Assembly (NCBI GenBank): GCA_020532085.1
Contig: JAJBAV010000027.1
Location: forward strand, 1-40,076
Length of the DNA stretch: 40,076 bases
Origin: Candidatus Cloacimonadota bacterium
GTDB lineage: Bacteria; Cloacimonadota; Cloacimonadia; Cloacimonadales; Cloacimonadaceae
Reading direction: 5' to 3'
Both the position numbers and the translations under genes were made by a program. Shown here piece after piece: positions 4,852-40,076 of the stretch. The first letter of the stretch is position 1. Each line of letters starts with the position of its first letter. The notes below the pieces were generated by a model. That model ran no database searches, was not told the origin of the DNA, and saw only the letters and a program-made list of their open reading frames with translations.

Positions 4852-5040
4852 ATAACACCTCCCATATCTTCCAGAATTAGCTTATGTCCTAAAACACTAA
4901 AATTACACCTAAATGAAACCAACAATCTTGTCAATTGTTTTCTGTTTAAACTCTGATACTCGGTTTTGGGACATGATTGTAAAGATGTCCCCTGCCTGCA
5001 CGCGGAGCCAAATCATAATGGCTTTACCTCAATGGATATC

Positions 5041-5449
5041 GCCCTGTTAACCCATTTCATTTTGTCTAATTTTTCATTAATTCCCTGCCTGGCGCCCGGA
5101 ACACATCATAAACCCGGAATCCCCGAATCGGCAGCCGCCATTTTAATATTTCTAATTTTTTAATAGTTCCCTGTCTGGTGGCCTTTTCACTCACCGGCTC
5201 CAGAACCAGGACGAGGAACATGTAAGATACTGATATATATACTATATAGATATAATATATACTAATATAGTAGGTATTAGTAGTTATATAGGTATATATA
5301 TGTTATATATAGTCTTATCTTGAACAACTGTCACTTATCCACATCCGGCATCGACCTCCGGCTCCGAGACAGGGAACTATTAAAAAATTAGAAAAATTAA
5401 AACGCCCTGTGAGGGTGTAAAAGCCAGGGAAATGTTAGAACAATTAGAA
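5041..5449. other. AT-rich, inverted-repeat-framed region resembling a replication origin or control locus
   Basis: No gene is visible. Two 35-base arms, 5141-5175 and 5368-5402, are inverted repeats matching at 34 of 35 positions; each contains AGGGAACTATTAAAAAATTA or its complement. They frame an extremely AT-rich core of alternating TA (about 5228-5325) and a perfect DnaA-box sequence TTATCCACA at 5335-5343. A looser outer pair lies at about 5079-5101 and 5427-5470, and the motif ATTAGAAA-N-ATTAAAA occurs three times (once inverted). It sits directly downstream of the leftward primase/helicase-like gene. An origin is plausible; an operator or recombination site is the alternative. Confidence 0.5.
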
Positions 5450-5488
5450 ACATTAAAACAGAGGCAGGGCAACTTTCGCCACCCTGCC
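5450..5488 (-). terminator. Intrinsic terminator of the primase/helicase-like gene
   Basis: On the minus strand GGCAGGG (5488-5482) pairs with CCCTGCC (5469-5463) around a 12-base loop, followed by TCTGTTTTAATGTTTC. It starts 13 bases after the stop codon at 5501. Confidence 0.55.
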
Positions 5489-5500
5489 TTCCTTGCTTGG

Positions 5501-8212
5501 TCAGGAGATATCCACGTCGTTCAATACGGGATTGAGGCTGTAAACCATGCTGACTCTGTTTCGGTACCCCGAATCTCTTTCATGGAAGATTATCGCCTGC
5601 CGCTCCACCAGGCTCTCCACACACTTGCGGAAATCCCGGGAGGGCATCCTTGATTTGCAGAGCAGGCGGGAATGCCCCAGTTCCTGCCCCGGCGCTTTTT
5701 GGAGGATCTTCAACAGGTGGCGTTCCTCATCCAGCTTGCTTCCTTCGGTTAGCTGCTTCAGGAAGGGCCGGGTGTTCTCGTAGTAATACTGGCAGAGATA
5801 CCAGGCCTCTTTGGCGGTGCGGGTGTCCACTTTGTTGTGCAGGAACCAGGTTTGCAGGTGGTCGTTGTCCCTGGCTTCGCGCAGGTCCCGCCAGTTTTTC
5901 AGCAGGAAGATGAGGATGCAGAAGCGCCAGAAGTAGTTGTCGAAGATGCGCGCGCAGTAGGCCGCCTGAGGGTCGTTGGCGTTGAGGGCGATGGCCTTCA
6001 TCAGGTCCGCGTAGATGGCGTCGCGGAAGTCCCCGGCCTCCTCGGAGGCCAGCAGCCGCCGGGAATCGGGCAGGCTCCGGAACACCGCCAGCATCTCGTC
6101 CCAGGCCGCCAGTTCGCGGTCGCAGTCGGAGGCGTCCACGCTGGCCAGGCGCAGTTCGTTGACGTCGATGTTTTGGATGATGCAGATGATGAAGCGCTGG
6201 AGGAAGCCGCCGCGCTGGTCCGCCACCTCGCGCAGTTCCTGGAAGAACCAGTCCTCGGTGGTGGCGCCCACGATGCTGAAGGCGGGTTTGGCGATGTGTT
6301 CGTCGATCTCCATCTTGGCTATCGAGCGGTCCTTGCCGTCGAACATGTCGGTGATCTCCTGCTTCATCCCGGCGTTGTAGGATTTGCCCATTTCGCGCAT
6401 CCAGGCGCTGAGTTCCATCTGCAGGATGAGGCGGTTGGGGTTGATGGCGAGGAGGTTGTAAAGCCGCGCCTGGGTCACCCTGCTGAGCTCGATGTCCTGT
6501 TCGTTGCGTTCTTTGGGTGAAAGCTCGCGCAGGGTTTCCTTGAAGGGCTGCAGCATCTTCATCGCCTGGTTGATGACGGTGGTTTTGCGGGAAACGGTGG
6601 AGGGCCCGATGATGGCGGCCCAGATGTTGCAGTAATGCCGCGTTCCGGCGTTGTACATGAACACCTTGTTGCCGATGGTGGCCGCCACCACGGGCAGGAA
6701 GGCTGTGAGCTTGGCGCCGTCCTGGGCGTCGGTGATGCGGCCCACGAGGTCCAGGTAGCCCACGATCTCGCGCGGCAGTTGGTCGCGGTCCAGATGGATG
6801 TTTTGGGGGCGGCGGAAGAGATCGAGGAGTTCGGGGAAATCGGCGAGGGTGGGTTTCGGAAGGTTGACGTCCCCGTCAACCTCGCTCCGCAGGAGCGACC
6901 CTTTCGCCTTTCCACAAAGCCCTGCGGGCTTTTGGTCGACGGGGACGTCGACCTTCCGGGTGTTTTCGCCTGAAGAGCCGGAGCGGATGTCAGAGGAGCC
7001 GCAAACGTCCCCCGCGTTACAGGAGCCGCAAACGTCCCCGTTTGCGAAACCCCGCAGGGGTTTGTCTTTTGGTCCTGAAAGGCCCTCCGGGCCTTGACCG
7101 ACGGGGACGTCGGTCGCTCCTGTGGTTATGGCATTTACCCAGCCATTTTGTTCCGCGATGTAGAACAGCGTGCCGATATTGACGCCGGGGTATTTCTTCA
7201 GCCGTTCCCAAACCTTGCGCAGGTCCTCCGGGGTGTCGCTGTAATTCGGATTATAGGCGAACTGGAGCCAGTAAACGATGCCGTCCTCCCCGAAATGGTT
7301 ATAGAGGGCGATGCCGCAGCGGATCCACTCGCGCCGGTCCAGCTTGCGCTGGGCGAGGTATTCCACGGCTGATTTGGCCTGCACTTCGTCGAGTGTGATC
7401 GTGGAGCCGCAAACGTCCGCCGCGTTACAGGAGCCGCAAACGTCCCCGTTTGCGAAACCCCGCAGGGGTTTGTCTTTTGGTCCTGAAAGGCCCTCCGGGC
7501 CTTGACCGACGGGGACGTCGGTCGCTCCTGTTATCTGGTTGACGGGGACGTCAACCTTCCGTCCAACACCGTCCGCAACCTTTTCTCCTTTTCCCTGTTT
7601 CTCCCCGTCTCTGCGCCTCTGTGACTCTGTGTTATGCTCGCGCAGCCACTCGTCCAGGTCCAGAAGCCACTCTTCCGGGCAGGTGATCACGTCGTCGTCC
7701 CAGCTCAGGAAGCAGGCGCGGCAGAGGTCGGGGGTGTTGTCGGCCTGGAAGCCGCTTTTGGCCTCGATCTCGGCTTTCAGCAGGTTCCAGATCAGCAGGT
7801 ATTCCGCCTTGTCGGTCACGGGCCGGCTGAAGGGAATCATCAGCTTCAATCCGTCCACGGGGCTGCGGAACAGCCAGCGGAACCAGGGCGCGGCGCCCAT
7901 CAGCTTTTGTTTGGCCGGGATGATCTCGCCCACGTGGTCGAAGTCGAAAACGATGCCGTTCACCTGGCGCACGTTCTCTTCGCTGCGGCTGCCTTCCAGC
8001 ACGCCATAGACGAAGTAGGGCAGGCGCAGCTTCATTTCCTTTTGCAGGATGGGGTTTTTCTCTTTACGGATGGCCTCGATGGGCTTGCGCCACTGGCCGG
8101 CTTGCAGCATCGCCATCAGGTTGACGGCGGGCATGGTCTCGATCGCTTCCGGACGGGTGATGGATTTGCCGAAAGTGATGAGGTTCAGGGGATTGATTTG
8201 TGTTTGTTCCAT
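5501..8212 (-). CDS. Primase/helicase-like replication protein (BT4734-like N-terminus, PriCT-2-like, DUF3987), linkers invaded by repeats
   Basis: 903 codons from ATG 8210-8212 (weak ribosome site GGAG). Residues 1-195 resemble the VirE-N/BT4734-like domain of mobile-element primases (VNGIVFDFDHV, LKLMIPFSRPV, CRACFLSWDDD). Residues about 272-360 resemble a primase C-terminal helical domain (YLAQRKLDRREWIRCGIALY). Residues about 447-780 match DUF3987 helicase-like proteins, with an atypical P-loop GPSTVSRKTT near residue 540. Both interdomain linkers consist of in-frame repeats: a purine-rich repeat (residues about 193-211) and three four-hairpin elements (about 228-270, 364-406, 419-452). 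Two of these give the near-identical peptide GATDVPVGQGPEGLSGPKDK. Such proteins replicate plasmids, phages or integrative elements. The origin-like region lies just downstream. Domain names come from recall and need a profile search. Confidence 0.85.
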   Translation of the reverse strand: MEQTQINPLNLITFGKSITRPEAIETMPAVNLMAMLQAGQWRKPIEAIRKEKNPILQKEMKLRLPYFVYGVLEGSRSEENVRQVNGIVFDFDHVGEIIPAKQKLMGAAPWFRWLFRSPVDGLKLMIPFSRPVTDKAEYLLIWNLLKAEIEAKSGFQADNTPDLCRACFLSWDDDVITCPEEWLLDLDEWLREHNTESQRRRDGEKQGKGEKVADGVGRKVDVPVNQITGATDVPVGQGPEGLSGPKDKPLRGFANGDVCGSCNAADVCGSTITLDEVQAKSAVEYLAQRKLDRREWIRCGIALYNHFGEDGIVYWLQFAYNPNYSDTPEDLRKVWERLKKYPGVNIGTLFYIAEQNGWVNAITTGATDVPVGQGPEGLSGPKDKPLRGFANGDVCGSCNAGDVCGSSDIRSGSSGENTRKVDVPVDQKPAGLCGKAKGSLLRSEVDGDVNLPKPTLADFPELLDLFRRPQNIHLDRDQLPREIVGYLDLVGRITDAQDGAKLTAFLPVVAATIGNKVFMYNAGTRHYCNIWAAIIGPSTVSRKTTVINQAMKMLQPFKETLRELSPKERNEQDIELSRVTQARLYNLLAINPNRLILQMELSAWMREMGKSYNAGMKQEITDMFDGKDRSIAKMEIDEHIAKPAFSIVGATTEDWFFQELREVADQRGGFLQRFIICIIQNIDVNELRLASVDASDCDRELAAWDEMLAVFRSLPDSRRLLASEEAGDFRDAIYADLMKAIALNANDPQAAYCARIFDNYFWRFCILIFLLKNWRDLREARDNDHLQTWFLHNKVDTRTAKEAWYLCQYYYENTRPFLKQLTEGSKLDEERHLLKILQKAPGQELGHSRLLCKSRMPSRDFRKCVESLVERQAIIFHERDSGYRNRVSMVYSLNPVLNDVDIS
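6857..6958. repeat. In-frame four-hairpin element A (diverged copy)
   Basis: Outer arms CGGAAGGT (6857-6864) and ACCTTCCG (6951-6958) enclose four hairpins: GTTGACG-TCCC-CGTCAAC (6863-6880), TCGCTCC-GCA-GGAGCGA (6882-6898), AAAGCCC-TGC-GGGCTTT (6916-6932) and GTCGACG-GGGA-CGTCGAC (6936-6952). The element lies inside the primase-like coding sequence and is translated without a stop. Copies B and C have the same order and loop types, but every stem has a different sequence. Confidence 0.85.
6995..7123. repeat. In-frame repeat unit B, 129 bp, containing a four-hairpin element (7021-7121)
   Basis: The unit differs from unit C (7403-7531) by one base in 129, and 129 is a multiple of three, so the reading frame is kept. 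Its core is bounded by AGGAGC (7021) and GCTCCT (7121). The core holds hairpins GCAAACG-TCCC-CGTTTGC (7028-7045), AAACCCC-GCA-GGGGTTT (7047-7063), AAGGCCC-TCC-GGGCCTT (7079-7095) and ACCGACG-GGGA-CGTCGGT (7097-7114). Confidence 0.9.
7403..7555. repeat. In-frame repeat unit C (7403-7531) plus a solitary hairpin (7538-7555)
   Basis: Unit C is 129 bp and matches unit B except for G in place of C at one position, which changes one residue (NAADVCGS against NAGDVCGS). Next to it a single hairpin, GTTGACGGGGACGTCAAC, followed by ACCTTCCG, looks like the remaining right end of another A-type element. Confidence 0.9.
7580..7634 (-). repeat. Purine-rich ACAGAGGCGCAGAGAC repeat inside the primase-like gene
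   Basis: Read on the minus strand, this is a purine-rich run with CACAGAGGCGCAGAGACGGG, translated as part of the first linker (about residues 193-211, TESQRRRDGEKQ). Close relatives lie between genes at 8934-8990 and 2092-2128, so this repeat was apparently inserted into the coding sequence in frame. Confidence 0.75.
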
Positions 8213-8245
8213 GGTTTGAGGTCTCCAAATTCATTATTTTGGAGG

Positions 8246-8377
8246 GGCCCCTCATAAGATAAGGGGTCAGAAAACGGCCAAAAGTCAAGTAAGTTATTTT
8301 CAAAGCCTGTAATTCGCCCGGTTGAATATTTGTTCTTGACTAAACCCATTTTTCTGACCCCTTATATATAGAGGGAC
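8246..8377. promoter_or_regulatory. Mirror-symmetric divergent control region
   Basis: Arms 8246-8290 and 8334-8377 are inverted relatives. Each reads outward as TTGACT, eight to nine variable bases, TTTTCTGACCCCTTAT, then a GAGGG stretch. The exact 16-base core is at 8259-8274 and 8350-8365. The left arm faces the primase-like gene and the right arm the small-protein gene at 8480, so both genes appear to share one duplicated control element. TTGACT could be a -35 box, but the spacing to the TATA-like sequence (about 20 bases) is too long for a classic promoter, so an operator or activator site is also possible. Confidence 0.55.
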
Positions 8378-8479
8378 ATGTTTCCACGGTCGAACAAAAC
8401 CCTCCTCTCTCTCCAATGATTCCCGCACTGCAGGCGGGAGGCATTCGGGAGGTACCTTTCAAACTACAAGGAGTTTCTA

Positions 8480-8926
8480 ATGAAAGCAAAATTCAAGAAC
8501 ATGCTGCTGGGCTACACCGGCACCTGCGACGGCCTGGTGTACTACTTCAACCGCCGCCTGAACCGGGTGATCGTGCGCCTGCACGTGAAACCCCGCTCCA
8601 ACGAGAACAACCGCCGCTTCGGGCGCATCGCCACCAACCTCAAACGCCTCAACCTTTCCGACGGCTACCGCCAGGACCTGAAGATCTATGTCAGCCTCTT
8701 CAATGGCAGCATGGCCAACGAAGACTTCATCCTGCAAAGCTGGTACAACGCCTTTTCCAAGCTGATGTGGAACCTGGTGAAACTCTACCCCGGACTGGAC
8801 CTGGAATTCGTTACCCGCGCCCAGATTGAAGCCGGCGACCTGCCTTGCCGCAGCGTGAAAAGCGCCGTGGAAGCGGGTCTGTTGCCTTCCGTGAACGGAG
8901 CTGAGCTGCTGGACAGGCTGATGTGA
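8480..8926 (+). CDS. Small unknown protein, 148 aa; complete member of the family seen at 1-283
   Basis: ATG 8480 follows AAGGAG at 6 bases. The protein begins MKAKFKNMLLGYTGTCDGLV and has an Arg-rich middle (NRRLNRVIVR, VKPRSNENNRRFGR), YRQDLK and a Trp/aromatic C-terminal half (ILQSWYNAFSKLMWNLV). There is no signal peptide or membrane helix. It shares the spaced pattern MK-x-K/R-FK, Y-T/S-GT-x-D, VxPR, NN, NL, DLK with the partial gene at 1-283. It is divergent from the primase-like gene and shares its mirror-image control region. The basic character would suit nucleic-acid binding, but no known domain is recognised. Confidence 0.82.
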   Translation: MKAKFKNMLLGYTGTCDGLVYYFNRRLNRVIVRLHVKPRSNENNRRFGRIATNLKRLNLSDGYRQDLKIYVSLFNGSMANEDFILQSWYNAFSKLMWNLVKLYPGLDLEFVTRAQIEAGDLPCRSVKSAVEAGLLPSVNGAELLDRLM

Positions 8927-26611: not shown

Positions 26612-26919
26612 GGCTCTCGTGCAAACCGAGTGGGTGGGGTGACAAAATGACTGATGAACTTTATACCAACAAGTCTCGATTCGTCATTCCGGACGCAGGT
26701 GCTTTAGCGCCGGAGATCCGGAATCCAGACCTTGCGGGAATAGCAAGTCCAAGCGGGGTCGAAACAGACGCAGTCTGTATCGACACCCTCTGAGGGCATT
26801 ACCTGGACCGTCTGGATTCCGGGCCCGACTGCGTCGTCCCGGAATGACAATCCGATGCCGGCCGGTTGAAAGTTCTGTATCCAGCCGATCCCTCCACCCA
26901 CTCGGTTTGAAAGAGAGCC
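26612..26919. repeat. Element with 29-bp terminal inverted repeats and flanking T-tracts, enclosing a full palindromic repeat
   Basis: 26612-26640 and 26891-26919 are inverted repeats matching at about 25 of 29 positions, including AAACCGAGTGGGTGG and its complement. T-tracts flank both ends (26604-26610 and 26920-26927). Between them, 26683-26848 is a complete copy of the GTCATTCCGG...CCGGAATGAC palindromic element, with inner CAGACGCAGTCTG hairpin. No protein is encoded. Confidence 0.75.
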
Positions 26920-39683: not shown

Positions 39684-40076
39684 ATTCTTGGGCCGGTCAG
39701 GCTGGTGTCGAGTGCTGGAGTCGAGCGAGATACGAGCATCGACTACAGCAGAACTCCGGGCATACACATTTTCATATGAGTTAACTGATTGAACGAGTTT
39801 TCGGATTTAAACATCCCCCACACAGCCCCAGAGTGTCAATCCGGGGAAGCGTGCGTTAGCACGCGGGGCCCCGGAATCCAGGCCTTGCGGGAATAGCCAT
39901 CCGTCACCACGCCGCCAGGTCAACACATCCACCCCCACCCAATTCATACCAAGACCTTTGCACATAATCCTCAGGGTCTGGTGAAAAAGTAAGAGCATTT
40001 AGGATCAAAAAGTAGTTTTTGAAATCTGCAAATAATTCTTGACAAAATAGATAGGCTCATATTTTGTCACTCTATC
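39684..40076. other. Spacer after mnmE, holding repeats and a weak promoter
   Basis: No gene is seen up to the window end. 39716-39754 is the second copy of the GTCGAGCGAG repeat. 39835-39901 is a half copy of the palindromic element with an inner GCGTGC/GCACGC hairpin. TTGACA at 40039-40044 and TATTTT at 40060-40065 form a possible promoter pointing right, with a short 15-base spacer. Confidence 0.5.
39835..39901. repeat. Palindromic dispersed repeat, half copy
   Basis: Begins GTCAATCCGGGG, contains GCGTGCGTTAGCACGC, and ends CCCCGGAATCCAGGCC then CGGGAATAGCC, matching the half copy at 2145-2191 and the left half of 26683-26848. Confidence 0.75.

Follow-up and report, generated by a model that had tools for sequence, protein, structure and literature searches.

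The closest described counterparts of the elements analyzed here are the REPIN/BIME systems of E. coli, Pseudomonas and Stenotrophomonas, in which tagged short palindromes form inverted doublets and tandem clusters, the gene of a cognate HUH-tyrosine transposase (group 2/3 RAYT, or TnpAREP) is flanked by the repeats, and paralogous RAYTs each have their own repeat class with complementary stem variation (PMC3116915, PMC2817692, PMC8266576). All of these features are shared by the repeats described below. Selection for complementary mutations in REPs has been published (PMC2817692), as have stem variants with alternative complementary residues and REP dimers inside replication and repair genes (PMC3733652). 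The intragenic GTAG and CGTC REPs (Di Nocera 2013, PMC3733652), such as those in uvrA of O. terrae, are likewise in-frame REP dimers, many of them in replication or repair genes and sometimes twice per gene. Rickettsia palindromic elements (RPE) are also in-frame palindromic insertions with a tolerated peptide; those RPEs treated as REPs are CGTC-tagged, and CGTC repeats are without linkage to transposase genes (PMC3733652).

The window analyzed here, a stretch of 40,076 nucleotides (contig JAJBAV010000027.1, assembly GCA_020532085.1) from a Candidatus Cloacimonadota bacterium, carries several such insertions within one replication gene. We consider it very probable that these elements are REPINs of a Cloacimonadota REP family, that is, inverted doublets apparently spread by cognate RAYTs. 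Contigs of the same genome are denoted below by C numbers, genomes of relatives by G numbers and retrieved loci by L numbers.

Repeat elements within a primase/helicase-like gene

The host gene, located at 5501..8212 on the minus strand, encodes a primase/helicase-like replication protein of 903 aa with Pfam matches above cut-off to BT4734-like_N (aa 61-175), PriCT_2 (aa 280-353) and DUF3987 (aa 579-814). A preliminary description had placed three elements of four hairpins each inside this ORF, and all three were found there, namely a type A REPIN of 102 bp at 6857..6958 and two copies of a type B REPIN at 7021..7121 and 7429..7529; a lone type A unit at 7532..7561 had been overlooked. The type A REPIN encodes about aa 419-452 and consists of units at 6858-6899 (+) and 6915-6957 (-), with covariance model scores of 57.3 and 51.8 bits. 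Its first hairpin, GGTTGACG-TCCC-CGTCAACC (6862..6881, plus strand), was delimited from the sequence and pair counts, and its second, TCGCTCC-GCA-GGAGCGA (6882..6898, plus strand), from the sequence and the covariation test. The type B copies consist of units at 7022-7064 (+) and 7078-7120 (-) and at 7430-7472 (+) and 7486-7528 (-), scoring 65.1 and 65.7 bits in each copy. The lone type A unit, on the minus strand, has the first hairpin only, again GGTTGACG-TCCC-CGTCAACC (30.0 bits; repeat D11), and directly adjoins the second type B copy, forming a mosaic A/B cluster. Folded as single-stranded DNA, the three REPINs gave z values of -8.5, -6.1 and -6.1 in the order of their positions, and 0 of 200 shuffles were as stable.

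As had been reported, a single base difference separates the two 129-bp copies (6995-7123; 7403-7531). The upstream part of this repeat, detected in the sequence and by repeat search, is a partial type B unit GGAGCCGCAAACGTCC followed by the spacer CCGCGTTACA (6995..7020, plus strand), and a like arrangement was found by repeat search at 7403..7428 on the same strand; the partial unit with its spacer at 6995-7020 is a relic of tandem REP amplification. The spacer recurs beside a type B unit at C12:14717, with a similar one at C9:37870. The common flank of the type B copies, shared over 129 bp with one difference and present also beside units elsewhere, suggests that these copies spread as a fragment of a tandem cluster.

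The four-hairpin element is an inverted repeat in which hairpins 4 and 3 mirror hairpins 1 and 2. The building block is therefore not the fixed four-hairpin string previously proposed; it is half an element, a unit of about 43 nt with two hairpins, and two such blocks face each other. Each unit consists of a tag GGA(A/G), zero to one further base, an 8-bp stem with loop TCCC, and then a 7-bp stem with a GNA-type three-base loop, mostly GCA or GGA. The outer stems, previously given as 7 bp, are thus 8 bp long, and their inner three pairs are fixed as ACG/CGT. An inverted pair of these two-hairpin units is a REPIN (REP doublet). Two subfamilies are present in the genome, type A (GGAAGG; pattern GGAAGGTNNACG-TCCC-CGTNNACC) and type B (GGAGN followed by a variable 8-bp stem). 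Units of both types pair in inverted orientation a short distance apart, and they are also seen as single copies, tandem series and mosaic A/B clusters. The tag is GGAA or GGAG in this genome and GGAN, GGGG or GGTG in relatives; the classical REP tag GT(A/G)G was not found on the Cloacimonadota units.

In an alignment with same-genus homologues, the repeat-encoded residues of the 903-aa protein were about 218-271, 365-407 and 419-452, all of them located in the two interdomain linkers. The homologues, of 798-849 aa when measured as stop-to-stop frames, are without the inserts, which bears out the earlier claim of in-frame insertion. The host gene is under purifying selection, with dN/dS of 0.11-0.34 against homologues, a value that mostly reflects the time preceding the insertions. 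Stop codons are absent from four of the six frames in REPINs A and B, and in-frame carriage therefore needs no special explanation. An example of an insert-encoded peptide is TDVPVGQGPEGL.

The closest orthologues of the host gene are 85-88% identical and have rearranged linkers. That of G019 (locus L117) carries different repeats in its second linker, where its frame stops short of DUF3987 within the stretch examined; this linker holds short tandem repeats in a string and a palindromic repeat encoding WIPGQARND. In the orthologue of G022, a linker contains the near-palindrome CCGGTTTTAACCGG, which has one copy in the G022 genome and at most two in each relative tested, and which we do not claim as a repeat family.

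Other repeats were observed in the window. One dispersed family, GGGGCCCCGGAATCCAGGCC.TTGCGGGAATAGCCA, occurs at 584-618, 2158-2192, 26712-26746 and 39865-39899 and is unrelated to the REPINs. Direct repeats of 55 bp at 481-535 and 551-605, 95% identical and carrying the motifs CATTCCGGGG and GGAATCCAG, represent another palindromic repeat family.

Copies across the genome and covariation of the stems

As the preliminary description had proposed, further copies were sought with a covariance model. In the 2.8-Mb genome it recovered 92 units at E<=0.1, of which 88 also passed E<=0.01, consistent with the many-copy short palindromes of REP/REPIN families, while a pattern search of retrieved genome stretches gave 77 after removal of one false match. 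Units were also present in 25 of 50 genomes of the family. Within the window, the GACGTCCCCGTC core was found 14 times with at most two mismatches, against 3.9 expected, and across the genome there are 66 occurrences of the exact 10-mer ACGTCCCCGT, compared with 14 of its reversed control. An Rfam search of 5000-8500 returned no match up to E 1.

Judged by ORF context in the retrieved stretches, the units lie mostly outside recognisable genes, the predominantly extragenic setting of REPs and REPINs, which answers the earlier question about copies outside genes. Among ten other long unit-bearing ORFs of this genome, Pfam searches gave no convincing coding insertion: none had a domain above cut-off except a 510-aa frame on C13, in which the unit lies upstream of the Pfam domains. 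A conserved ORF holds one unit at its 3' end. An ORF on C9 contains three tandem REPINs; its matches within the same genome and in G024 run through repeat-encoded residues, and those in G019 and G022 cover its last 90 residues only. Additionally, the end of C1 (C1:240342-240758, L063) and the start of C23 (C23:1-208, L061) both fall within one 183-bp tandem array of type A units, and the two contigs are probably neighbours broken by this array.

Compensatory change in the stems had first been deduced from the contrast between the window's elements A and B, which is in part a contrast between two subfamilies; over all units the covariation holds. In 30 distinct units of this genome, compared with 500 shuffles, 94.4% of cells were paired against 77.4% when shuffled, 80 cells carried double changes against 21.8, and covariation scored 0.495 against 0.187, a value reached in 0 of the 500 shuffles. 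Pairing fell to 44% when the partners were slid by one column. Relative to the commonest pair, helix 1 had 45 double changes and no one-sided change. When 3' arms were shuffled inside type A and inside type B separately, covariation held for the second hairpin and for type B helix 1; for helix 1 of type A by itself, the observed value did no more than match the highest shuffle (37/40), a weaker test because this helix has few distinct stems. Compensation is therefore genuine within each subfamily as well, although the test has lower power for helix 1 of type A. Mismatches in helix 1 showed no clear excess of G-T over A-C (4 and 4 in this genome, 3 and 1 in relatives), and this spectrum does not favour RNA over DNA.

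A synteny comparison with G024 identified three unit sites common to both genomes. At one of them the stems are unchanged, with one unpaired base and one loop base altered. Another bears on decay versus compensation of stems, which the preliminary description had set against each other, and both occur there: a C-G innermost pair in G024 corresponds to G-C in this genome, where the second hairpin has decayed. Pairs are thus kept across the family while old copies can still decay; selection therefore acts on the family of repeats, not on every single insert. Selection at the family level for a foldable substrate explains the covariation without a function in the host gene.

Cognate transposases and alternative explanations

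A search of the genome with Pfam Y1_Tnp gave seven matches, two of them on C23 in genes amid the repeats. RAYT-B (C23:12326-12985; match at C23:12659) lies inside the type B cluster C23:12040-13300, and RAYT-A (C23:20057-20689; match at C23:20375) inside the type A array C23:19484-21108; each is bordered on either side by units of its own type at distances of up to about 90 bp. The two proteins are 60% identical. With the NCBIfam profile REP_Tyr_transpos (NF047646; cut-off 80 bits), RAYT-A scored 84.7 bits and RAYT-B 79.4 bits, just under the cut-off, and the only PDB match in a search with RAYT-B was TnpArep 4er8. The HUH histidines H126 and H128 and the tyrosine Y191 are invariant in nine relatives; the HUH motif, catalytic tyrosine and family profile together identify these proteins as RAYTs. 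Genes of this kind set amid their own flanking repeats have the organisation of a REPtron.

The same arrangement recurs in relatives, where model-positive units were found within 250 bp of RAYT genes on both sides in G011 and G036 (loci L154 and L161 for flanking on both sides) and on one side in G016 (L156). The units flanking RAYTs in relatives span several genera and match with different stems, and GG-tagged hairpins with other stems also lie near the RAYTs of several additional named Cloacimonadota. In six of 12 other genus members the model detected units, but a search at E 1e-10 gave no relative of RAYT-A; these units may be remnants, or a diverged RAYT may act on them. In viral contigs, RAYT relatives were limited to one weak match. 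Two further RAYT genes of this genome (C30:29901-30509 and C2:78063-78659) are 31-32% identical to RAYT-A, and the R1 model found no units near them.

The selection for structure as DNA or RNA that had been put forward holds as regards structure, and is best explained by the elements being the single-strand DNA substrate of RAYTs from the same genome, not by selection in the host gene. Hairpins would fold when the DNA is single-stranded (e.g., on the lagging-strand template). By analogy with work on E. coli and group 3 TnpAREP (PMC8266576), the cognate RAYT, a HUH single-tyrosine nuclease, most likely reads the tag, the loop and the folded hairpin, and would cut and then copy or move the unit to new sites, with the two paralogous RAYTs serving subfamilies A and B, respectively. 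Elements of this class are known to show such covariation, which arises from the requirement that their hairpins be recognised by the transposase. In-frame copies landing or amplifying in an interdomain linker of the DUF3987 gene would be tolerated because most frames of the element are without stop codons, and the encoded peptides would then be neutral.

Selection of the inserts in place was considered at two levels. Stable hairpins in a transcribed region could act as mRNA structures that regulate or pause translation, or as RNA elements, a role proposed for REPs elsewhere (PMC3733652). We regard this as highly improbable, since homologues keep the gene without the inserts, the covariation is family-wide and mostly outside recognisable genes, helix-1 mismatches lack the G-U tolerance typical of RNA selection, and Rfam gave no match. 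At the protein level, the frame is kept through three REPINs and a lone unit in a gene under purifying selection, and the encoded peptides might be functional extensions of the primase/helicase. This too is very unlikely: homologues do without these residues, the peptides follow from the DNA palindrome, and the different repeats in the second linker of the G019 orthologue are as expected of a permissive site.

Two other classes of mobile palindrome resemble the elements in part. Inverted-repeat ends and a length of about 100 bp recall MITEs that belong to an ordinary IS element and show its terminal inverted repeats along with target duplications, but the occurrence of units singly, in tandem and in mosaic A/B clusters is unlike a fixed-end MITE and the linked transposase is a RAYT, leaving this origin extremely improbable. 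Palindromes of the Rickettsia type, RPE-like or CGTC-tagged and without a transposase, are equally intragenic, in frame and found in similar host genes (PMC3733652). Hardly any probability attaches to this reading, given the 5' tag GGA(A/G) in place of a CGTC terminal tag and RAYT genes flanked by units in at least four genomes, whereas transposase genes are, by published account, not flanked by CGTC repeats (PMC3733652).

About fourteen DUF3987 loci are present in the genome, and of the 30 unit loci left after merging, five are no more than 2 kb away from a DUF3987 gene or gene fragment, a territory of 2.5% of the genome (binomial P 9e-4, or 0.006 without the window gene, in a test that was made after the pattern was seen and that ignores shared intergenic or decayed regions). 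Units near other DUF3987 genes or fragments are at C5:72227-72837, C13:54825-57873, C59:704-4671 and C2:97606-99904. A distinct RAYT recognition class that reads both hairpins and has DUF3987 genes as preferred landing or maintenance sites seems unlikely; if true, it would connect the repeat with a replication protein that encounters this single-stranded DNA as well.

Relation to described REP and RAYT systems

The pairing of REPs with RAYTs, multiple RAYTs each with its own repeat, complementary mutations and intragenic REP dimers are already published. The covariation itself, offered in the preliminary description as the novel part, belongs with these, as complementary REP mutations were reported before (PMC2817692, PMC3733652). 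We found no report of a Cloacimonadota REP family in the literature searched, and what is new is this REP lineage, with its non-GTAG tag and two hairpins per unit.

Compared with the REPIN/BIME systems, the Cloacimonadota units belong to another phylum, carry the tag GGA(A/G) rather than GT(A/G)G, have two consecutive hairpins per unit, and keep a fixed loop TCCC and inner ACG/CGT pairs. The range of REP/RAYT systems thereby widens to include Cloacimonadota, in a form that has a variant tag and doubles the hairpin. The paralogous RAYT-repeat pairs, two in one genome and others across genera, vary in their stems while loop and inner stem stay fixed, which amounts to a natural experiment on what the enzyme reads in a REP. 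Compared with the intragenic GTAG and CGTC REPs, the tag and the phylum again differ, and three REPINs and one further unit are found in a single primase/helicase-like gene. This in-frame triple insertion adds a further case to the reported, unexplained tendency of REPs toward replication and repair genes.
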